From Apium graveolens (Eukaryota; Streptophyta; Magnoliopsida; Apiales; Apiaceae): a stretch of 64,000 bases of DNA. The notes under the pieces are model-generated. The model made no database searches. It was given only the letters and a program-made list of their open reading frames with translations, and was not told where the DNA came from. The stretch's first letter is position 1; every line of letters starts with the position of its first letter. Location of the stretch: contig NC_133650.1 in the NCBI RefSeq assembly GCF_009905375.1, forward strand, positions 299,893,957 through 299,957,956, in the 5' to 3' direction. This document shows, piece after piece, positions 1 to 25,148 of this stretch. Both the position numbers and the translations under genes were made by a program.

Positions 1-266
1 TCTCTAATAATAGAAGCATCTGAAACACCATACTCACCAACAAACTCTCTGGAAGTGGATATGATAAACACTTCAATTCCTGATTCCCCTTCTTTAACTC
101 TGTTGGGGAAGCTAAAATCTAGTGCAAGTGAGCATCATCTTTTAGATGATTTGTTGGCTCACTTGCCAATTCTTTCAGATACTATTGTGACATCTGTGCC
201 TCAAATAACTTCAATCAACACAGAGTCAACAATAGTTTCTCTTCCCACCTCATTCATTTCTACTCT

Positions 267-383
267 CTCGATGGATATTGCTCATCCGTCGAGTAGTGAT
301 TGTATCCCGACGGATAAGCTTAACAGCAGTTATCCGTCGGATAGCAATACCACTCACTCGATGGATATCACTTATCCGTCGAG
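267..383. repeat. Inverted ATCCGTCGA-type motif cluster inside ORF3 coding sequence
   Basis: Six copies of a roughly 11-bp motif occur in alternating orientation. CTCGATGGATAT is at 267-278 and 357-368. CATCCGTCGAG is at 283-293 and TATCCGTCGAG at 373-383. CCGACGGATAA at 307-317 is a perfect inverted repeat of TTATCCGTCGG at 330-340. The copies sit in one coding frame but encode different peptides (SMDI, HPSS, PTDK, YPSD) depending on orientation. The motif differs by one transition from the ATCCGTTGA motif of the element at 14,489-23,276. Confidence 0.8.
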
Positions 384-1496
384 TATCTCTGCACAACTTC
401 AAACTTCAATTATTTCTAGTGCAGAAGATTTAGTGGTAATACAGTCACTCTTAGGACTGAGAGAGGAGAGTGCATTGAGTGAGAGACTGGGTTGCTCCCA
501 GGCAAAAGGAGAGGAAAAAAGTGAATCTCAGCAATCCATTTATTCAGGATTGGCAAAAGTGAGTAAGAGGAGTCCCACCTTAGTAGGTGAAGGTGAGGGT
601 GTGAGGGTGGGGAGCCAGGGTGAGACCCTGATGCAACAAAAGAGAGATAATGAGAGAAAGGCAGGTACAGGAGAAATAAGGGTGGATCCAGCCATTGCCA
701 GTGAGTCAATGATTGTGGATGATGCTGAAAAGGGAAGACAATTTCAGCAACATTACAAAGTTGTAATTGATAAGATTTCCTTGGATGCTGACACTTTTAC
801 TCTTCCTGTGTCAGCCTATCAATTGTTGGCTGCTCAGGGCAATGTGGAGGCAAAACAAACCTTGAACTTAGTACACACCTCAGAATCTCTTCAAAGAGAT
901 AAAGCTGCTGTTAATAGGATGCCTTCTCAAGCTGGTGAGCCATCTGAAGAATTTGGAGTAAATTCTAATGGTGATGACTCTATTTTATTTGATGGAAGCA
1001 TGAACTTAGGGGGAGATGAAGGCCCAAGTTCTATTCCTGATCTACCTGAATGGGCTTTGACTAAGGAATCTACTCCTGGACAATTCAATGTATCCTTGGT
1101 CAAACAAATTATGTCTATCCAACAGGCCATTCAGAAGAGCTCCAATGCTGGTACCAAGGCTGTTCTTCAAGCTCACCTAGAGTCTTTACATCTAATGAAG
1201 CTACAGCAAGTCAGACAGAATATGAGTGTAGATGAAATCAAAAAGGACATAGCTGACTTGAAGACCTATAATTCTGAGAAACTGGATTCAGTCATGCCAT
1301 ATGGTACCATGCAAGATCTAGTACTGAGACTGAGGAAAAAATCAGATTCTGAAAAGAAGCTGGCCAAGCTGGAAGATAGAGTTCAAGCTATTGAGAATTC
1401 TGTGGCCATTCTTCTGTAAAATCAACAGTCTCAAACAATCCTTCTCATGCAACTGGCTAAAGCACAAGGCCTAACTCCTCAACTTGATGATAACAA

Positions 1497-12622: not shown

Positions 12623-14488
12623 TATGCCTTTCAGTCATGCATTGAAAGATGGAGATACAAGATACCCTACCATCGAAAAGTTAGCCTTGGGGTTAATAAC
12701 GACAGCAAGGAAGCTTAGACATTATTTCCAAGGAAAAATTATTGAGGTGATTACTGACCAGCCATTGAAGAAAGTTTTACATAAACATGAAGTATCGGGA
12801 AAATTGATGGTATGGGCTATAGAGCTTGGTGAACATGACATTGATTACAAACCTCAGACTGCAATCAGAGCTCAAGAACTTGTTGATTTTATGGCCTAAT
12901 GTTCTTTCAAAACACCAATGGAGGATGTCACTGATGATCATATTGATAAAACCCCAAAGCTTTGGATACTCTTCGTCGATGGGTGAGTTACACAAGAAAA
13001 ATATAAATGCGGAATGCTCCTAACTAGCCCGAGTGGGTTTGAGGTTCGTCAAGCAATACGTTTTACGTTCAAAGTTACAAACAATGAAGCTGAATATGAA
13101 GTAATGATATCTAGGATGAAATTAGCCCGTAGCCTAGAGGTAACTCACTTACAAGCTTATAGTGATTCACAACTTGTTGTTAAACACTACTCTGGAGAGT
13201 ATAATCGCAAGGAAGAAATATTAAAATCTTATGTAATCGAAGTGAGAAGTTTGGTGAAGGAATTTGATATCTTTAACATTATTGGGATAGCTAGAGAAGA
13301 CAATTGACGTGCATATGCTCTTTCAAGATTGGTACCGCTGATAGAGGTACTCCTGATGGAGCTATATACATGATGGAGTTACATCAACCATCAATTGAAA
13401 GAACACAAGTAAATTTTATTGGCCAAATAAGATACTGGATGACGATAATCCGTATCTATTTGGAGAAAAATATCTTGCCACCCGATCGAACCGAAGCTAG
13501 AAAAATAAAGTATAGAGCAGCTATTTATACAATGGTTGGAAATTTGCTCTATCAAAGATCCATGTCACAACCACTCTTGCAATGTGTTACTCCTGAAGAA
13601 GCAAGGTTGACCCTGGAAGAAGTTCAGGAAGGAGTATATGTTGATCACTTAGCATGAATAGCTTTGGCCTTTAAAATTCTAAGGCAGAGATATTTTTGGC
13701 CTACCATTCGTCAAGATGCATTGTATTATGTTCAAAAGTGTCACCAATGTCAAACTCATGCAAACATTCCCCGCCAACCTTCATCAAAGCTTACTTCAAT
13801 TTTTTGCCCAATTCCTTTTGCGGTGTGGGGAATTGATATTGTGGAAAAGCTGCCAAAAGGTAAGGGTCAAGTAGTCTATTGCATAGTAGTAGTTGATTAC
13901 ATGTTGAAGTGGGTTGAAGCAAAAGCACTTTCTCAAATCACAGAAGTTGCAGTCATTAGGTTCGTCAAAGAGAGCGTTATTTACAGATTTGGTGTGCCAA
14001 AAACAATGGTCTGTGATAACGGTTCTCAATTTAAAGGAAACGAATTTGATGAACTTATGGAGATCTATCACATTGAACATCACACTAGTGTTGTTGCTTA
14101 TCCTCGGGGAAATGATCAAGTTGAAAATGTAAACAAATCCATCAACAAATGTATTGACAAAAGACTGGAAGATGCCAAAGGTTTATGGGTTGATGAATTG
14201 CCACATGTGTTATGGGTATATCGTACGACTACAAGAAGAGCAACAATTGACACACCCTTCAGATTAAAATATGGAACTGATGCCTTAGTTCCTGTCGAGG
14301 TTGGGTTATCATCCTATCGTAACCAAAATTTTGACATGAAGAAAAATTAAGAAGGTCTAAGGTCAAATATGGATCTTACCAAAAAGTTGAAGGACATAGC
14401 TACACTACACACTATTTATTATCATCAGAAGGTTGCTCGACACTTCGACTCTAAAATTAAAAAGAGATTTTTTCGCGTTGGCGACTAT
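12623..14488 (+). mobile_element. Ty3/gypsy (Tat-like) pol fragment, part 1: RT end, RNase H, integrase
   Basis: The plus-strand fragments begin in the reverse transcriptase/RNase H region (FSHALKDGDTRYPTIEKLAL). They continue through a second RNase H-like segment (VTNNEAEYEVMISRMKLAR...AYSDSQLVVKH) and an integrase with the zinc-binding end CHQCQTHA. The catalytic core shows GIDIVEKLPKGKGQ, MVCDNGSQFKGNEF and GNDQVENVNKSI. Two RNase H domains point to the Tat lineage. Stops near 12,897, 12,987, 13,305, 13,655 and 14,348 and a frameshift near 13,305 show decay. The left end is cut by the element 1 LTR; the right end stops at VGDY where the element 2 LTR begins. The C-terminus resumes at 23,277. 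Confidence 0.85.
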
Positions 14489-14981
14489 CACATTTTTCTT
14501 CTTCATTTCTCTATCCAATGCAATCTAAGATAATCTGTGAATCTTTGAATATTTCCTTGTTTGCACCAGAATGGAAATGCTGCTTTTTCTTGACTCCTCC
14601 AAGAGGCTACCACATTCCAATTATCTCTGTCAACCCATGTGCCTCTGTCAGCTTATGAATTGTCACTATCAACTGCTATGGAACTAAGCATCTGTTGAAG
14701 CTTTCATCCGTTGATGGCTTTTATCCGTTGATGCTTTAGTGACATCCGTTGATGCTTTAACAGTTGAAGCTTTATCCGTTGATGCACTCATCCGTTGATG
14801 GATGTTATCCGTTTAAGCTTTAGAGACATCCGTTGAAGCTTTGTTTCTCATCCGTTGAAGGCCTTTAATCTATCAGTTGATACTACTTCATTTATACAAA
14901 ATTACAAGGCATGAGATATTTACAATTAGCCCTCCTATTTGCATATCCACTAGTAGTCAACATGACTTATAATTTCTCACA
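14489..14981 (-). repeat. Truncated 3' LTR of element 2
   Basis: This stretch matches 22,786-23,276 almost base for base. The other ~418 bp of the LTR (the part beginning TGTTATTCCC) is missing, and the sequence joins directly to gypsy integrase. A deletion therefore removed LTR sequence together with part of the gypsy coding region. It contains about eleven ATCCGTTGA-type motifs (14,688-14,882). Confidence 0.85.
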
Positions 14982-15141
14982 ACTTCTAAGAATTATAACT
15001 TAAAATGCAGAGACTGAAATGTGCTACAATACTAAACTTATTTCTAAGTAAAGCTACTCCATCAACGGATAGCCAAGATGGTCTTATCCGTTGAGACTAC
15101 AAACACTAGATTTCTACTTAAGTGTTTTGTTTAACTTATCA

Positions 15142-15987
15142 TCAAACTAATACACATATTCCTAACAATGTGCTTAGGGAAATAGGTCCGTCAAAACCAT
15201 AACACCTTGGATTCATGATTGGTAAGTATACCAATGACACTTGACTGTTGAGGTTAATACTCAAAAGGTCTGCAAGGACCCTCTTCTCTTGTACCCAGCA
15301 TTTGAGTTTATTACTCTCATTAGTTATGACCAAACCTTCAACAACATGGTTAGCCAATAACATAAAGAATCTATCATGGTAGATGTTATGAGGTCTATTA
15401 GCCTTTTTACCTAACCTAGTACCCAATTCTAGCATAATATAATTGCTAAAATTAAAATACCTATCAGAAACCAGCATATAGAGCATATTAACAAGAGATG
15501 AAGTTATTGCATCAGAATTACTAATTTTCCCAGAGAAAACCTTGATAAAGGCATCACCAAGAAAACGCCATTCTTTCCTAAGGCCTTTTCTCCTAATACT
15601 GTCTAAACTAGCAGAATCAAAGGAATAGCCTATGGAATCTAACATGCTAGATACATCATTATCAGTGTGTGGTGTCATGGCATGATTTTCAGGTAATTTA
15701 AAATAGGACGGTATATCATCACAGTTAATACAGTAATCCTTACCTTTGAGAGAGAAAGTGATGGTCATATCAGTGGGGTTGAACTCTACAGTTGTCCACA
15801 TTTCTTCAACTACCTCACAGTAAATCACTGGGGCTTCCAGCATTGCATAGCTTAGTTTGCAGTTTTTGATGAAGTCCATCATCTTGTGATAATCTGAGTG
15901 GGCTTCATTCTTTTCCACCAAAGCTACAAAATTGTTTTTCTCATAGACAAACCCAGATTGGGACATAATCTTTACTACTGGTGCCAT
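15142..15987 (-). pseudogene. ORF3 N-terminal domain of SIRE-type element 2, truncated
   Basis: I choose the start MAPVVKIMSQSGF at 15,987; an in-frame Met at 16,092 adds a low-complexity extension typical of a leader. About 281 residues follow, with the segments EEMWTTVEFNPTDMTI and FSLKGKDYCINCDDI near residues 70-105 and NIYHDRFFMLLANHVVEGL near 210. It is related in layout to the start of ORF3 in element 1 (5,470-5,072). It ends at GICVLV only about 160 bp from the LTR, whereas element 1 ORF3 is about 845 codons, so the coiled-coil and acidic parts were lost. I know of no function for this domain. Confidence 0.65.
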
Positions 15988-16235
15988 TGTTGTGAGTAGA
16001 AGTTGCAGAGAAAGGTTGAGAGTTTTGGGAGAGAAAGAGAGTAAAAGCTTTTGAAAATTGCAAGAAATCGTAAAGTGAAAATAAGAATTCAAAGGGGCTT
16101 TTATACTTTCTCAAATTAAAACATAAAGAGAATGATTAAACAATATTTTTAAGTGAATTACAGCCGTCTGAGAATAATATTAAAACTGTAAGTATTCTAA
16201 AACTGCCTTTAATACAAATACATACATCTGTGTAT

Positions 16236-16465
16236 ATATGTATGTATCAACGGTTAAGTACATAGAATCAACGGCTGTGACTCACTCAAAACGACCGATG
16301 TGACACTTCAACGGATGAGGTAAACAATTATCTGTTGAAGATTAGCAGAATTTTATCCGTTGAAGGATAAAATTACCAGAAATATATATGTCTTTCAAAG
16401 GATAATGGACATCCGTTGATAGAACAATTTTGGCTTTCAACGGATAGGGAATATCCATTGATAGA
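16236..16465. repeat. Dispersed TCAACGGAT/ATCCGTTGA motifs in the ORF3-pol spacer of element 2
   Basis: The spacer between ORF3 and pol carries about nine copies or near-copies in both orientations, for example TTCAACGGATGAGG near 16,308, TATCCGTTGAAGG near 16,355, CATCCGTTGATAG near 16,411, TTCAACGGATAGG near 16,438 and TATCCATTGATAG near 16,452. A further inverted pair lies between ORF3 and the LTR (15,060-15,095). No gene lies in 16,093-16,546. Confidence 0.8.
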
Positions 16466-16546
16466 ATAAACTTTACTAAAAGCCAACTATGTTCTTGCAA
16501 CAAATTTATTTCAGGCTACAAAACAAATTATAATTAGAACATGAAT

Positions 16547-19500
16547 TTAGGAATAATTAAGCATACCTAGCTCACTTACTAATCTTGTGAATGTTGATTC
16601 ATCAAGTGGCTTGGTGAATATGTCTACAATTTATTTTTCACTGGGAACAAAATAAAGTTTCACTGTACTATTCATCACATGTTCCCTTATGAAGTGGTAC
16701 TTCATGTCAATGTGCTTGGTTCTTGAATGCTGCACTGGATTTTCAGTAATGGAAATGGCACTTGTGTTGTCACAGAATATTGGTATTTTGTCAACATTTA
16801 GCCCATAGTCAAATAGTTGATTCCTCATCCATAATATATGTACACAACAACTACCAGCAGCAATGTACTCAGCCTCAACTATTGATGTAGAAACATAATT
16901 TTGCTTCTTACTGAACCATGACACAAGCTTATTCCCTAGAAATTGACAGGTGCCAGTTGTACTTTTCCTGTCTATTTTGCAACCTGTATAATCTGCATCT
17001 GAGTAGCCAATTAGATCAAAACCAGACTCTCTAGGGTACCAAATTCCTAGATTTGGAGTCCCTTTGAGATATCTGAAAATTCTTTTAATAGCAACTAAGT
17101 GAGATTCTCTAGGATCAGCTTGGAATCTAGCACAAAGACATGTAGAAAATATTATATCAGGTCTACTAGTAGTTAAATATAGAAGTGAACCAACCATGCC
17201 TCTATAGCTTGTAATGTCCACAAACTTTTCAGCCTTGTTTAATTCAAGCTTGGTGGCAGTGGCCATGGGAGTTTTTGCAGATGAATATTCCATTAAGTCA
17301 AACTTCTTTAAAAGATCATAAATATATTTAGTTTGACTAATGAAAATTCCACCACTAACTTGTTTAACTTGTAAACCAAGAAAATAAGTTAGCTCTCCCA
17401 TCATGCTCATTTCATATTTACTTTACATTAACTTAGTAAACTTTTTACAAAGTTTATCATCTGTAGAGTCAAATATAATATCATCTACATAAATTTGAAC
17501 AAGTATTGTAGAGCCATTAACATTTCTAAAGAAAAGAGTTTTGTCAACAGTACCTCTTGTGAAGTAATTATCTAGGAGAATTTTTGACAAAGTCTCATAC
17601 CAGGCTCTAGGTGCTTGCTTTAGTCCATATAGTGCTTTTAACAGATAGTACACATGGTCTGGAAAATTTGGATCTTCAAACCCTGGAGGTTGACTCACAT
17701 AAACTTCTTCCTCCAATTCTCCAATCAGAAATGCACTCTTGACGTCCATTTGATAGACTTTGAAATTGGCATGGGCTGCATAGGCTAGAAAAATTCTGAT
17801 GGCTTCAAGTCTTGCAACAGGAGCAAATGTCTCATCAAAATCTATTCCCTCTTGTTGAGAGTAGTCCTTGGCAACCAATCTAGCTTTATTCCTTATGACA
17901 ATGCCATTTTCATCCATCTTGTTTCTGAATACCCATTTTGTGTCAATAGAACTTTTGTTCTTTGGCTTGGGTACCAGCTTCCATACTTTGTTCCTCTCAA
18001 ATTGGTTTAGCTCCTCTTGCATTGCTAAAATCCAATCTGGATCCAATAGAGCTTCTTCCACTCTCTTAGGTTCTTCCTGTGATAGAAAACTACTGTATAG
18101 ACATTCATCTTGAGTAGCCCTTCTAGTTTGCACCTTAGATGTTGCATCACCAATTATTAGTTTAAACGGATGATTCTTGGTCCATTTCCTTTGAGGTGGT
18201 AGATTAGCTCTAGACGAGGTTGCCTCAGTATTGTCATGATGTGAGATAGAGTGTTGATTGGTTGAAACTCCCCCCTGAGTTATTGGTCCTTTGTAAGGAA
18301 CTGGGAGTTCTATCAACTGATAATGTAAATTGATTATCCGTTGATGAACTATGATCAACGGATGCTCCATTATGTACTTCAACGGATGATGCACTTTGTC
18401 TTTCAACGGATGCTGCATTACTTCTGTCAACGGATGCTGAATTATGACTTTCAACTGATGCAACATTTTGTGCATTATCCAAAGGCATATTTTGAATCCT
18501 TTTTGAAGTGTCTTCTCCATCATTCTCATCTTCACTATCATCACAATATATCTCAATGTTGTCAAATTTGAGTCCTTCATGATGTCCCTCATCTGTTAGT
18601 CCATCAATCTTTTTATCATCAAACACAACATGCACAGATTCCATAACAATGTTGGTTCTTAGATTGTAGACCCTATATGATTTTCCAGCAGAATAACCAA
18701 CAAAGATCCCTTTATCAGCCTTTGCATCAAACTTTCCTTTGTGATCAGGTTGGTTCCTTAGAATGTAGCATTTGCAACCAAAGACATGAAGGAAGTTTAA
18801 GGTTGGTTTTCTTCTCTTGAACAATTGATAGTGAGTCATGCCTTTTGTCTGATTGATTAGAGAAATATTCTAAGTGTAACATGCACAGTTAACAGCCTCA
18901 ACCCAAAAGTATGTTGGGAGTTTTGACTCTTCAAGCATTGTTCTTGCAGCTTCAATTAGTGAACTGTTCTTCCTTTCCACCACACCATTCTGTTGTGGAG
19001 TCCTTGGAGCTGAGAACTCATGCATGATCCCATTTTCTTCATAGAACAGCCTCATGGTTGAAGTCCTGAACTCAGTTCCATTGTCACTCCTGATATTCCT
19101 TACTTTGAAATATGGATGGTTGTTGACTTGCTTGATATGATTGATAATAATTTCACTAGCTTCATCCTTTGAACCAAGAAAATAGGTCCATGAGAACTTT
19201 GAGAAATCATCTACAATCACTAGGCAATATCTTTTCCTTGAAATTGACAACACATTGACTGGTCTAAAAAGATCCATGTGTAGCAGTTGTAATGGTTAAT
19301 CAATTGCTGATTCAAGCTTCTTTTTAAATGATGCTTTCTTTTGTTTTCCTTTCTGACAAGCATCACACAGTCCATCCCTTGAGAATTCCACTAGAGGCAT
19401 TCCTCTAACTAAGTCCTTTTTGACTAGATCATTCATTGTTTTGAAATTCAAATGGGACAACTTCTTGTGCCATAGCCAACTTTCATCTTGACTTGCTTTG

Positions 19501-22307
19501 CTGAAAAGACAAGTAAATGATTCTGCATCTGTAGAGTTAAAGTCAGCCAAATACACATTCCCTTTTCTAACTCCAGTTAGAACCACTTTGTTGTCCTTTT
19601 TACTGGTGACAACACAGGCTTCAGAATTGAAGGAAACGTATTCCCTCTGTCACATAGTTGACTGATGCTCAATAGATTGTGTTTGAGACCATCAACTAAT
19701 GCAACTTCATCAGTGATGACATTTTCTTTTGAAATCAAGCCATATCCCATAGTGAACCCTTTGCTGTCATCTCCAAAGGTTATGCTAGGGCCAACTCTCT
19801 CCTTGAACTCTGTGAGCAGGGTGAAATCTCCTGTCATGTGCCTTGAACAACCACTGTCCAAGTACCATAGATTCCTTATTTTTCCCTGCACACAACAAAA
19901 TCAAATCAAGTTGATTTTGGTACCCAAGTTTCCTTGGGTCCAGCCTTGTTAGTTTTTTTCCTAGACTTCACACTTCCTGCACCTTTTGACTTAGGTAACT
20001 TTGAGTCAACCTTGATCTCAGATGTAGTTGGTTGAAGTGTAGGGTTAGTCACAGAATCATTTAGCACATTTGACTGAATTTGATAATGCATAGATTGTGC
20101 AAACATATTATTCCGCATAGGCATGTTGTATGGCATTTGAGGCATACTAAATGCAGCAAAATAAGGATTATTAACATATGGCATGTTTGCAAAATGTGTA
20201 TGTGAATTCTGTTGAGACATAACAGGCATAACATGCAGTGGTGACATAGACATGTTAGGCATGGAAGGAGTTAAAGGCATGGGAGCATTCTTAACAGATT
20301 TGCAGTTAGCAGATAGATGATTAACACTACTACAATGTACACAACTTTTTCTAGGAGCATACTTATCAGGTGTGTAATTGTTGTGTTTGTCAATCCCTAC
20401 CTTCCCATTTCTATTAGATTTTATTTTAGTTTCCTTTTTATCCTCAACCAACTTAAGCATATTTTTCAACTGATCTAAAGTCATGTGTCCTATATTCACC
20501 TTACTGGCATCTTTGGATGTGCTAGCTTCTTCTTTGACAAAGTTCTTGGAAGTTGAACCAAACTTCTTACTGAGATTTTTCAAATTATTCCTTTTAGAAT
20601 CTTTTGCCTGTTTCAATTAATGAGCCTTCAACGGATGCTCCTTTTCTTCCTTCAACGGATGACTTTCATCATCCATTGATTCCACATCCGTTGACACTCC
20701 ATCAATTAACTCTATTTCCTTTTTGTTTTTCTTCCAGGCATTCTCACAGAGTGATTCAATTCTTTGAACCTTGACAATTTGAGCACTAACATCCCTAGAT
20801 GTTTTCCAGGCCTTAATTACCTCTTGCTCACGTTCTAGTTGTCTGGAAAGAACTTCTACTTTCTTAACAGACTCTTCTAGTTCACTCTCAACAGATAAAC
20901 ATTTGATTTTAATCTTTTCAAGCTCAATTACCTTACCCTCTAACACAACATTCCTATCACTTAAAAACAAATTATTCTCTTTAATTCTTGTGTTCTCTTT
21001 AGCCAGTGATTTAAGGGAAACGCGTAAATGATATAATTCATTGGACATATCATTTATAGCTTCATTGAATTCATTTTTAGAAAGCTGAGAGAGGTCAGTA
21101 GTAATTACCTGGTTACTTGATGAACTAGTTTCATTTTCATCAGAATTAGCCATCAAGGCTAAGTTGACATATTCCATATCATCATCTTCACTGGCTCCAT
21201 CAGCTGCCCAGTCATTTTCCTGAGTCAGAAAAGCCCTTTCCTTTTGTTTGAGCAATTCGAAATATTTCTTTTTGTAATCCACTTGCTCAAATTTCTTCTT
21301 TTCAGAAGTTGGCTTTCTACACTCACTTGCAAAGTGTCCACTTATGCCACAATTATAACACTTGAACTTAGATTTGTCCACCATGTTCTTGTTTGGCTTA
21401 GTGGCTCTAATGTTTTTCTTGAATTTCATTTTTGCAAACCTTCTGGACAGAAAAGCCAGATGTTCATCAACATCATCAGAGTCATCTTGACTGGAATTGT
21501 CTTCAACCTCAACAACTTGCTCCTTTCCCTTGCTTGTGCCAGTTTTGAGACTTGGCATTATCTTTTCTTCATTCCTGGCTTCAGTTCTCTCATTGCCAGC
21601 TACAAGTGCAACTGATCCACCTTTTCTCTTTCCCTTCTCCAACAGCTCATCTTGCTCCATCTCAAGTTCATAGGTCTTCAAAATTCCATATAATCTTTCA
21701 AGTGTGAAGTCCTTATAATCTTGAGAATTCCTTAGTGAAACAGTCATAGGCTTCCATTCCTTTGGTAGAGACCTCAGATTTTTTAGGTTGGAATCCTTGA
21801 CTTGGTACACTCTGCCATACAGCTTCAATCCATTCAATAGTTTCTGAAATCTATTGAAGGTATCATTCAATGATTCTCCTTCTTCAGAATGAAAATATTC
21901 ATATTGTTGAATGAGGAGCTGCATTTTATTTTCTCTAACTTGTTCAGTACCTTCACAGATAAGTTGCACAGTATCCCAAATTTCCTTGGCAGTTTGGCTG
22001 TTAATGACATTATCAAACATATCTTTGTCTAGGCCATTAAACAGAATGTTCATGGCCTTTTTGTCCTTGTGAACCTCTTCAATATCTTCATCAGTCCATT
22101 CTGCTTTTGGCTTGGGAATAGACTGTCCAACAGCAACTGTGGCAGTGGCAGCTGTGGCCACTTTGTGAGGAATGTGAGGACCATTCTCAATGCAGTTGAT
22201 GTAGCTTTCATCTTGAGAGAGAAGATGTAGAGCATCTTCACTTTCCAGTGATGATAATTATCTCTTTCCAGGATTGGAATCTTCACTCCAATATCATTCT
22301 TACTCAT
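16547..22307 (-). pseudogene. gag-pol polyprotein of SIRE-type element 2 (broken)
   Basis: The start is MSKNDIGVKIPILERDN at 22,307, with a frameshift near 22,240. Gag continues to about 20,617 with the zinc knuckle CYNCGISGHFASEC near 21,340. A Met/Asn/Pro-rich linker with a second knuckle-like CVHCSSVNHLSANC lies near 20,330. Protease has LWYLDSGCSRHMTGD near 19,870; integrase has WLWHKKLSHLNF, DNGTEFRT and TPQQNGVVERKN; reverse transcriptase has [12 protein letters not shown] and [10 protein letters not shown]; RNase H has STIVEAEYIA. Stops lie at 20,617, near 17,411 (expected Gln) and near 16,628 (expected Gln), with frameshifts near 22,240, 19,900, 19,590 and 18,600. RNase H continues past the 16,628 stop to [12 protein letters not shown] and ends at 16,547. 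Confidence 0.9.
18330..18465. repeat. ATCCGTTGA motif cluster in the integrase-RT linker of element 2
   Basis: Six copies lie in coding sequence. ATCCGTTGAT (18,336-18,345) and ATCAACGGAT (18,354-18,363) form a perfect 10-bp inverted repeat with an 8-nt loop; TCAACGGATG copies follow near 18,381, 18,405 and 18,430. On the coding strand most are read GCATCCGTTGA and give the repeated peptide ASVD or ASVE. In gag (20,628-20,700) the same motif is read in other frames as HPLK and STD. Confidence 0.85.
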
Positions 22308-22353
22308 GATGTTAGTATAATAGATCTTTAAACTCTTTGTATGTCAAGAGCTC

Positions 22354-22365
22354 GCTCTGATACCA
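22354..22365 (-). other. Primer binding site (initiator tRNA-Met) of element 2
   Basis: The minus strand reads TGGTATCAGAGC two bases inside the 5' LTR, the same primer site as in element 1. Confidence 0.9.
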
Positions 22366-22367
22366 AT

Positions 22368-23276
22368 TGTTATTCCCAAGGAACTAACAATGAGATTTAC
22401 AGAAGGGGGGTTGAATGTAAATCTCAAAACTTTTTCAAGTTTTGAGCAGTTTATAAAGCAAAGTGTTATGATGAACAACTGTGTGTGAATTGCTTTGAGC
22501 AGGTGCAGACATATGTATATTCAAGACACAAATGTAAAGAACACAAAGGCTTCAAAAACTTTTCTGGTGGATTTGTTGTTCCACCAGAGATGTGTATTTC
22601 AGAAAATCTGTGATATAAAGAATTGATCACAGCTGCTTCCTAGTACAAACTAGATGATTTTCTCTCTAAGTTTTTCTAAACAGCTCTGGAAAATTCACAT
22701 CTAATTACTACCTGCTACTTGGTTTATATATCACCAAATTTACAAGTGAAGACAAAGATAAAGTGCAATTATAAAATAGTTCTTCACATGTTTCTTCTTC
22801 ATTTCTCTATCCAATGCAATCTAAGATAATCTGTGAATTTTTGAATACTTCCTTGTTTGCACCAGAATGGAAATGCTGCTTTTTCTTGATTCCTCCAAGA
22901 GGCTACCACATTCCAATTGTCTCTGTCAACCCATGCGCCTCTGTCAGCTTATGAATTGTCACTATCAACTGCTATGGAACTAAGCATCCGTTGAAGCTTT
23001 CATCCGTTGATGGCTTTATCCGTTGATGCTTTAGTGACATCCGTTGATGCTTTAACAGTTGAAGCTTTATCTGTTGATGCACTCATCCGTTGATGGATGT
23101 TATCCGTTGAAGCTTTAGAGACATCCGTTGAAGCTTTGTTTCTCATCCGTTGAAGGCCTTTAATCTATCAGTTGATACTACTTCATTTATACAAAATTAC
23201 AAGGCATGAAATATTTACAATTAGCCCTCCTATTTGCATATCCACTAGTAGTCAACATGACTTATAATTTCCCACA
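22368..23276 (-). repeat. Complete 5' LTR of element 2 (about 909 bp)
   Basis: It runs on the plus strand from TGTTATTCCC to ATTTCCCACA, so the minus strand has TG...CA ends. The half 22,786-23,276 matches the truncated LTR at 14,489-14,981. Eleven ATCCGTTGA-type motifs, nearly all in the same orientation, lie between 22,988 and 23,172. The element's inner LTR border and the gypsy flank share ACTTCTA, so the exact boundary could shift by up to 7 bp. Confidence 0.85.
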
Positions 23277-23353
23277 ACTTCTATTTCCAAGCTATTGATG
23301 GTACGCCAATCAAGAATACTTGGAATATTTCCAAGCTAAAGAAATACTACTAG
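23277..23353 (+). mobile_element. Ty3/gypsy pol C-terminus, part 2
   Basis: A plus-strand frame reads DGTPIKNTWNISKLKKYY and then stops at 23,351-23,353. This is the conserved end of gypsy polyproteins (D-G-x-P-I...TWN...LKKYY). It is the continuation of the integrase interrupted at 14,488, with the intervening stretch of the integrase C-terminal region deleted. Confidence 0.8.
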
Positions 23354-25148
23354 TAGCTCATCATACTATCGTCATCATCAGATAAGCTTAAATAAAGTGA
23401 TGTTGATGATCCATAATTCTATTTATCATAGTAGGATATTTATTTAAATATGTATGAGGATTTTTATCTATTTGGTAAAATAAAAAACAAATTATGAGAG
23501 CAATATATTTATCAATAAAAGTTTTTTTCATTTTATCTATATTAACATGTGTATGTCAATTTTATTAAATTAGTATAACTTAGTTGCATAACTTCCTTAA
23601 GGGATGACAAGCAACTAGAGGTTACAATTCCAACCCAAACAAGTGTTTGACGAAGGTCACTTGGGGCCAACGAATTTTTTTCAGTCCTGGACTAGCGACT
23701 CTTCGCCAAACACTTGGGAGGAAATCAAATATTTATCCTAGATTTGTGACCATATGGGTGATAAAATGGTTAAGTTCCAAACTTGTGATATATCGATGAT
23801 CACTCGGGAACAAAAAATTAATCTAACACCCTACTTATGATCTGTTCGATACTCACATGGGGATACAATATATATATACGTGCTAGACTAGTGATGAACC
23901 ACTTTTTTAATGAAGCAACAAGTCACTTGAGGGCAGAGGATATATCAGGCCAGATATACGCCCTTTTGAGTTAACTCCATCCGTCCTTTTGAGTTAACAT
24001 TTGAAATGAAGTGTTTGACACGCATTTTAAGGCTCTTATCTATTATAATTGTATAACTTATTTTGAAGATTTTTTTTAATAAAAGTTTAAACATTTAATA
24101 TTTACTCAGAAGAAAAAAAATTAAAAAATAATTTATTTAACTATAGTAGATAGGAGCCTTAAAATGCGTGTCGAACACTTCATTTCAAATGTTAACAAAT
24201 CAAAGGGACAAGGGAGTAGAAAATAAGACTACCGCAACCGGCAACTATGGCACTAAAGCAGCCCGTGAAAAACAAACGGGGCATTAGATTTTCACACTTT
24301 CAGATGGATGAAGAAAGTCCAAAAAAATAGATTCAAGATTAATGATCTTACCAGAATGGCAAGTTGGAAAAATACTCCAGGACGCCACATTTTGAAACCC
24401 TAATTATAATTACAATTGGGGATGAGGAAATAGATGTGAAGTAAAACTAGTGGTTTCGATTATACCATTGTTGGAGGGCATGGCTAGGATTGCTGACACA
24501 TGGGTAAAAATATATCCCCAGCTTTCTCCAATAGAGCTTAAAGTTTGAGATGACTAGTTAAAAAGCTATTAAAAAACAAGCTATAAGTCATCATCGACAT
24601 AGGTAGCCTATTGAGTGCTAAAATAATATATTAATAAAAGGGGAAAAAGAAAAAACCAAGGTATTGAGATTATGAGATTCAAATGGGTCGTGATGGAAGT
24701 AAAAAGGCCTACTAATAAAAATTAGCTCAATAATTCCCTCTAAATGCATCAACATAGTTGTTTTGGCAAATGGGACAACATTACTACCATATTCCCAATG
24801 ATATTGGAACAAAAAGTACATCAATTTTATATTCAATACCATGGCTGCTAAACTACATAAGAGATGTGATAATTTGAATTCATATTTTTTATTTATCCCG
24901 AGGAAGAGATTCAACATGGAATAAATTGATAATGATTTGGCAAACTATGCCAAATAAATTATGATAATAAGTTATTTTGATAACATCAAAATAATTAAAA
25001 ATATTAAAAACTAAAAGTTTCAAAAATCTCGGGTACTTGTTGATACTATATTGTGATTTTAGATATTTATTATTGAATTAGCAACAACTCGTATTATTAG
25101 ATCTCTAAATCTATAGAACAAGTATAATGCCAATGACTTCACATTAAA
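23354..25148. other. Intergenic, probably 3' untranslated part of the gypsy element plus a MITE
   Basis: I see no gene here. The start follows a gypsy stop codon and may be that element's non-coding 3' region. A MITE occupies 23,974-24,218. The rest is AT-rich without long reading frames that resemble proteins. Confidence 0.5.
23974..24218. mobile_element. MITE, family A copy 1 (long terminal inverted repeats)
   Basis: A 245-bp element has inverted repeats of about 75 bp. The left arm contains CATTTGAAATGAAGTGTTTG and ACGCATTTTAAGGCTC; the right arm contains AGCCTTAAAATGCGTGTCG and CACTTCATTTCAAATG. The ends are CTCCATCCGTCC and GGGACAAGGGAG, typical of Stowaway/mariner-type MITEs. Copies with the same TTTTAAGGCT core lie in introns of both host genes. 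Confidence 0.8.

Follow-up and report, generated by a model that had tools for sequence, protein, structure and literature searches.

The subject of this study is a stretch of 64,000 nucleotides of the celery (Apium graveolens) genome (contig NC_133650.1, positions 299,893,957 to 299,957,956; hereafter the window, in which position 1 is the first base), and in particular the broken Ty1/copia long terminal repeat (LTR) retrotransposon of Sirevirus type that lies on its minus strand at 14489 to 23283, with truncated ends and a disrupted interior. A nine-base motif, TCAACGGAT or in the other orientation ATCCGTTGA, is present there in great excess, is distributed over LTRs, genes and spacers, holds fixed positions among copies, is read in three ways within coding sequence, and differs in a coordinated manner between two element families of the genome, here called A (that of the window element) and B. 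With a probability that we put at roughly one half, we propose that it is a family-specific DNA mark kept in the LTRs, gag, pol and the third open reading frame (ORF3), and that it is the putative binding site of the element's own ORF3 protein, predicted to have a VANC21-like fold, which would lift silencing from its own family.

On the minus strand the Pfam domains run in the order gag with zinc knuckle, GAG-pre-integrase, integrase core, SH3-like domain and reverse transcriptase, followed by ORF3 and the 3' LTR, the coding region being interrupted by stops and frame breaks. Comparison with other copies sets the LTR start at 15167 (TGTTAGGAATATG), and the same start is found in the LTRs of two fetched genomic pieces, L019 and L077; the 5' LTR of the window element therefore lacks its first ~180 bp, and the end of the 3' LTR (cut at ~14489), a large part of ORF3 and the polypurine tract (PPT) are gone. 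The sequence TGGTATCAGAGC at 22365 we take to be the primer-binding site (PBS). The parts of the element are as follows.

14489 to 23283, minus strand: family-A Sirevirus-type Ty1/copia element (Pfam copia order; LTR pair; LTR start from other genomic pieces)
22368 to 23283, minus strand: 5' LTR without its first ~180 bp, inner end approximate (repeat pair; TGGTATCAGAGC at 22365; CCCCCC at 22410)
22986 to 23175, minus strand: motif array of the 5' LTR (10 sites at ≤1 mismatch, 8 exact, one orientation)
20617 to 22161, minus strand: gag up to an internal stop (Retrotran_gag_2 PF14223, 4.4e-20; zinc knuckle PF00098, 2.9e-6)
20628 to 20694, minus strand: gag motif cluster, STD...HPLK...HPLK (3 exact sites and 1 near)
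18234 to 18869, minus strand: open piece with the SH3-like domain and the linker (PF25597, 4e-24)
18313 to 18459, minus strand: integrase-reverse transcriptase linker motif cluster (24-bp units read ASVE/ASVD, and one inverted copy, STD)
16631 to 18181, minus strand: reverse transcriptase in two open pieces (PF07727, 5.8e-61 and 1.3e-7), with an RNase H region assigned by position alone, no Pfam match to RNase H being found in this interval
16247 to 16461, minus strand: pol-ORF3 spacer (9 sites at ≤1 mismatch, both orientations)
15142 to 15987, minus strand: ORF3 at the envelope-like (ENV-like) position, a truncated frame that opens with MAPVVK, continues into the LTR and encodes 281 residues (VANC21-like fold by prediction)
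14489 to 15167, minus strand: 3' LTR, its 3' end missing (motif array 14690-14880; inverted motif pair 15062-15094)

Several Sirevirus traits are present, namely the copia order gag-integrase-reverse transcriptase, a CCHC gag, and a PBS/polyC LTR junction (CCCCCC at 22410, TGGTATCAGAGC at 22365). Sireviruses typically have several PPT copies of the form AGGGGGAG ahead of the 3' LTR; this form is absent from the window element, where that stretch is deleted, and in L077 the sequence directly before the LTR is AGGGGAG, with neither AGGGGGA nor GGGGGAG. The gag protein has 122 homologues, and among the 120 matches listed the named ones are mostly from Apiaceae, the best being proteins of Apium graveolens itself.

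All 29 exact copies of ATCCGTTGA/TCAACGGAT in the window fall within the element, compared to a mean of 0.005 and a maximum of 1 in 200 dinucleotide shuffles of the element, and with one mismatch allowed the element holds 47 (shuffle mean 1.2, maximum 5), whereas the remaining ~55.2 kb of the window has no exact copy and 13 with one mismatch. An earlier note on this DNA, made from its letters, had described the motif as seeded through an entire retrotransposon, in coding and non-coding parts and in both orientations, and these counts, far above the shuffled range, bear it out. Its local counts agree with those of sites at ≤1 mismatch. For the about eleven that it gave for each LTR there is an array of 10 such sites (8 exact in the 5' LTR, 7 in the 3' LTR); the nine sites claimed for the spacer are all there at ≤1 mismatch, in both orientations and frequently as inverted pairs, as are the four or more claimed for gag (4 at ≤1 mismatch, 3 exact); for the six of the linker there are 5 exact and 7 at ≤1 mismatch. 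Besides its ten sites in one orientation the LTR has one inverted pair, the two exact copies at 15062-15094, which lie inside the true 3' LTR, and a pair of this type recurs beside the LTR arrays of other genomic copies. The different reading frames that had been claimed are likewise real: the gag cluster, near the end of the first open piece, reads STD and HPLK, and the 24-bp units of the linker read ASVE/ASVD with one STD. A further six-site cluster, deleted in the window's own copy, lies in the ORF3 region of longer copies (L064, L065, L079), reading STD...HPL/YPL in one frame of L079.

The motif is by no means confined to this copy. In pattern counts over 3,332,948,439 bases of the genome, reported as 3.33 Gb in 11 chromosomes (PMC8051603), direct motif pairs number 86,906 and 87,154 against 4 and 4 for a reversed control pattern. 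Inverted pairs of the form TCAACGGAT...ATCCGTTGA occur 59,610 times against 0 in the control. Pure A pairs amount to 174,060, pure B pairs to at least 41,340 (CGG) and 14,992 (CGA), and mixed A/B pairs to 13,521 and 15,879 in the two orders (a minority, yet not rare), with controls of 0 to 8 each. Many of the mixed pairs listed recur with identical flanks, and the family-B LTR holds one TCAACGGAT site in L107 and L108. Other recurrent mixed pairs have other flanks, such as ATCCGTTGAAACTCAGATTGATCATCCGTCGA, which suggests further families intermediate between A and B. Each of the 30 linker loci (3.6 kb, one being the window's own) bears 3 to 6 exact motifs in a conserved 24-bp register, individual sites having been lost by mutation, and the gag and linker clusters are both kept in all four longer pieces (L027-L030). 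Related copies thus do bear the motif, which was one of the checks proposed. LTRs and linkers differ in their number of local tandem units, and the sites were probably multiplied by short local tandem duplications, of 24-bp units in the linker and 15-22-bp steps in the LTR.

Twelve of the 13 LTR-type pieces from the first listed places (L014-L026) align to the element's LTR by blastn. The exception, L017, has five copies of TCAACGGAT at 636-755 in irregular short steps and no alignment to the element, and two copies at 710-775 of L066 are located at the 3' end of a different copia element that lies nearby. We rejected the idea that L017 is the LTR of that neighbouring element, since nothing was common to L017 and the stretches on the other side of the element; these clusters could belong to another lineage carrying the motif.

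Family B was recovered in a search with the linker of protein P0164 and shares 70.7% identity with A across the linker region and 70.5% along the 5' body with gag (2,197 columns). In the linker it carries ATCCGTCG[AG] where A has ATCCGTTGA, its units being mostly TCC GTC GG as compared to TCC GTT GA in A, and its 5' LTR, gag, pre-ORF3 spacer and ORF3 were fetched by position from the linker matches. The letters before ACGGAT are TCG or CCG in B at 17/25 sites in the LTR, 10/10 in gag, 72/81 in the linker and 18/20 in spacer and ORF3; the corresponding counts of TCA in A are 126/139, 32/35, 126/140 and 37/38, most of these A pieces having been found via the motif and the LTR pieces chosen through the motif itself. 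Overall, LTR and gag of B are represented by 3 copies, and its ORF3 by 2 and the window fragment described below. The tally was repeated on pieces not picked by the DNA motif (A: the window, L064 and L065; B: L106-L110), of which the window had been supplied because of the motif and the others were reached via linker protein similarity. In this repeat A has TCA at 70/73 sites and TCG/CCG at none, and B has TCG/CCG at 45/55 and TCA at 2 (Fisher 2e-30, a value that is indicative only, as the sites are not independent). The A/B split of the linker is partly by construction; that of the LTR, gag, spacer and ORF3 sites is not.

The coordinated difference between the families is thus TCAACGGAT as compared to YCGACGGAT. 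Both families meet in the window itself, where an ORF3 fragment of family B accompanies the A element.

1 to 692, plus strand: family-B ORF3 fragment (93.5% identity to L110, 95.7% to L109)
268 to 382, plus strand: six family-B sites (two TCGACGGAT, two CCGACGGAT, two TCGATGGAT) in alternating orientation, start spacing 16-23-25-26-16

The start spacing of this ORF3 cluster is identical in A (L064, L065, L079) and in the B fragment; therefore the sites stay put and their letters differ together. The residues differ along with them: from A to B, Ser takes the place of Leu in gag (HPL/YPL to HPS/YPS, seen in L106), Gly replaces Glu/Asp in the majority of linker units (SVE to SVG, although unit one retains SVE as GTC GAG), and in ORF3 Ser becomes Pro at 2 of 3 places (STD to PTD) and Leu becomes Ser (YPL to YPS). 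The protein residues follow the DNA, and selection on the peptide alone would not be expected to give such changes. The earlier note had argued that what is kept is the nucleotide motif rather than the peptide. Strong support for this comes from the sister family, in which the motif is altered at the same letters throughout LTR, gag, linker, spacer and ORF3 and across different frames. Compatible with a nucleotide constraint is also the codon choice in 21 linkers (related rows), in which the residue before SV[DEGRS] lacks an A-ending codon in 2/58 cases as compared to 67/313 for other serines. Relatives, which beyond celery were compared at the protein level, show the same variants: STD..HPL/YPL or HPS/YPS occupies the matching place in many gags from Apium, Heracleum and Daucus, some Heracleum gags having diverged there, and many linkers carry SVD/SVE/SVG units in variable number.

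Could the copies be a functionless by-product of mutation, a short sequence spread and homogenized by slippage, template switching or gene conversion? Unit number does vary by tandem steps in linker and LTR and, TCG to TCA being the kind of change typical of CpG, one family could have arisen from the other by decay. We nevertheless consider this very unlikely. Positions and spacing are fixed across families that are ~70% identical, and the same difference recurs in unrelated contexts and frames, at sites separated by kilobases. Moreover, when the ACGG core is not required, [CT]CG forms number 0/100 in A as compared to 59/67 in B; because decay is visible at the other CpG of A (TCAACAGAT 12, TCAATGGAT 9), its missing TCG form is not ordinary CpG decay. 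Spread by template switching, which the earlier note had offered, is accordingly not supported as the principal cause, for the families differ in the letters of the sites and not in their positions.

Alternatively, the motif might act in RNA, its inverted pairs forming hairpins for packaging, dimerisation or translation control, or serving as a source of small RNA. The abundance of inverted pairs over their control, cited above, is in favour of this, both hairpin arms differ together between the families, and four pieces with inverted pairs fold better than their shuffles (z of -6.72 in gag, -3.15 in the linker, -3.89 in the spacer at 16300-16445 and -2.50 at the LTR hairpin). The LTR array, however, which is the largest and lies in one orientation, shows no such fold (z -0.64, with 54 of 200 shuffles equally good); therefore what the sites share is sequence and not structure. 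Any sequence-level constraint on both orientations would yield the same hairpins and paired changes. RNA folding, as the earlier note had suggested it, is thus possible in the inverted-pair regions and not in the LTR array, and as a general explanation we regard it as distinctly unlikely.

A third alternative is a cluster of host transcription-factor sites, that is, enhancer boxes (e.g., of MYB type), with the genic copies acting as internal enhancers or driving an internal ORF3 promoter. The enhancer boxes of Tnt1 and Tto1 are, like the celery motif, short repeats in the U3 (unique 3') region of copia elements; unlike it they are bound by host factors and are not known outside the LTR or from coding sequence. 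The LTR array lies ~250-450 bp upstream of TATATAAA at 22730 (TATAAA is found also at 23191 and 22455) in a single orientation, a second cluster precedes ORF3, and the CAACGG within the motif is presumably compatible with a MYB-type core. Yet family B has CGACGG, which does not fit that core, at its sites in LTR, gag, linker and ORF3. Nor would a host factor serving A and B alike account for a switch specific to the family, and enhancers would hardly be expected deep within gag and the linker. We therefore think a host factor unlikely, although regulation has been proposed for Sirevirus repeated motifs by Bousios et al. (PMC2829016).

These repeated motif (RM) boxes, which the earlier note did not take into account, are the nearest precedent, described by Bousios et al. 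in 2010 (PMC2829016). As in celery, they have a high copy number and a CGG/CCG core (Table 3 of that paper), form clusters both in the LTR's upper half and ahead of the ENV-like gene, differ between elements and have an inverted (dyad) layout before ORF3. In the available part of the paper they are reported from the LTR, the linker domain and, in two elements, the ENV start, their function not having been tested. Palindromy is a further trait of RM boxes. The celery element has inverted pairs before and in ORF3; its LTR copies, in contrast, are non-palindromic direct repeats in a single orientation, and many copies lie in the coding sequence of gag, the pol linker and ORF3. To this the celery case adds the coordinated sister-family switch and a proposed protein reader.

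That reader is suggested by structure prediction. Models of ORF3, including one of a second family member, have one outstanding structure match, the solved VANC fold 9lnj, so that the ORF3 fold is predicted to resemble VANC21, a DNA-binding anti-silencing protein. On the sequence level Pfam gave Transposase_32 below the cut-off only, and a search of the PDB with ORF3 found no match up to E 10. Hydropathy revealed no clear membrane segment in four ORF3 proteins, two being borderline (maximum 19-residue Kyte-Doolittle values 1.47, 1.53, 1.77 and 1.77).

The VANC proteins of VANDAL transposons (Hosaka et al. 2017, PMC5735166; 9lnj) offer the closest parallel of function. VANC21 is described as binding YAGTATTAY in vitro and the related VANC6 as using AGTTGTCC/AGTTGTAC, motifs that build up as tandem repeats; here too, a motif of ~9 bases has accumulated tandemly through a transposon and differs between related families, and the element encodes a protein whose models best match the VANC fold. 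By analogy, ORF3 would bind the motif of its own family all along the provirus, LTRs and genes alike, and once bound would strip silencing marks or DNA methylation, with only copies of the right motif version being released. Each family's ORF3 would favor its own version, selection for binding would keep the sites even within genes, where flexible protein segments may tolerate them, and drift of protein and motif would split families, as has been proposed for VANC21 and VANC6. Of the roles offered in the earlier note, protein binding fits best, although the models point to ORF3 itself and not to a host or Gag protein; its interpretation as a whole is partly supported. More tentatively, at somewhat less than even odds, we suggest that the “envelope-like” third gene of plant Sireviruses is not an envelope but a VANC-like sequence-specific anti-silencing factor, and that the scattered motifs are its co-evolving family address, dragging the element's proteins along.

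Several observations weigh against this explanation. VANDALs are described as Mutator-like DNA transposons with targets in non-coding DNA and VANC proteins bearing DUF1985/DUF287 (PMC5735166), whereas the celery element is an LTR retrotransposon, many of its sites lie in gag, linker and ORF3 coding sequence, and binding by ORF3 is a proposal. DUF1985/DUF287 matches were found in 0 of 34 ORF3 proteins at E≤1 (15 families listed), and hhalign of ORF3 against six celery DUF1985 proteins, one of which is linked to VANC21 by sequence (E 1.2e-5), gave probabilities of 0.3% and 0.2%, both profiles being shallow. Because of the coding-region sites and the missing DUF1985, we do not file the element as a VANC system. 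Family B is also looser than A, with 10/55 sites neither TCG nor CCG, mixed pairs are not rare, and several linkers of relatives (e.g., P0160, P0170, P0171) are without any units. According to the available part of PMC2829016, OPIE-2, PREM-2, Osr8 and Tnd-1, which are Sireviruses without an ENV-like gene, still have LTR repeats.

Methylation in sunflower is of interest here, as a “dramatic reduction” in CG methylation is reported from that species for the region between the LTRs of SIRE elements (PMC12844716). This is compatible with anti-silencing by ORF3, in a different species and with a cause not established there; against it, other lineages in sunflower also show local CG decreases, and methylation in the CHG context stays high in SIRE. 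The same paper mentions VANC by way of example and, in the part available, describes nothing of the kind for SIRE. In open-licence PMC text we found no account of VANC-type anti-silencing in a Sirevirus or other LTR element, nor of a celery SIRE with such a system, and the matches listed for the bare nine-base motif were unrelated.

Some further observations concern the surroundings of the element and more distant sequences. An open frame at 13658-14350 of the window resembles, by eye from its translation, a Gypsy-type integrase and ends near the 3' LTR cut at ~14489, which suggests a nested or deleted junction there, and at 23993-24196 lies an inverted repeat with 84-nt arms, 87% complementary and 36 nt apart, similar to a miniature inverted-repeat transposable element or a foldback element. 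Among viral contigs the triple-motif pattern occurred in five, all tandem arrays by inspection (retroelement genes not having been searched for there), and a reverse transcriptase piece of the element found no relative. Two Apiaceae-like retrotransposon proteins, P0013 and P0141, are deposited under Rhizophagus irregularis and Klebsiella pneumoniae, records that are probably plant contamination of those assemblies.

Sireviruses have spread in many plant genomes, extensively in the grasses (PMC3414828), and in the available part of the 2010 account neither their repeated motifs nor their ENV-like gene had a proven function (PMC2829016). If ORF3 does read the motif, a single mechanism would account for both, and LTR retrotransposons would join the Mutator-like DNA transposons as elements that encode a DNA-binding anti-silencing protein. 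The coding switch, in which one motif turns Leu into Ser in gag, Glu into Gly in pol and Ser into Pro in ORF3, is an unusually clear example of a constraint on DNA to which proteins conform, and two families with different motif versions in one genome provide a ready-made test of specificity.

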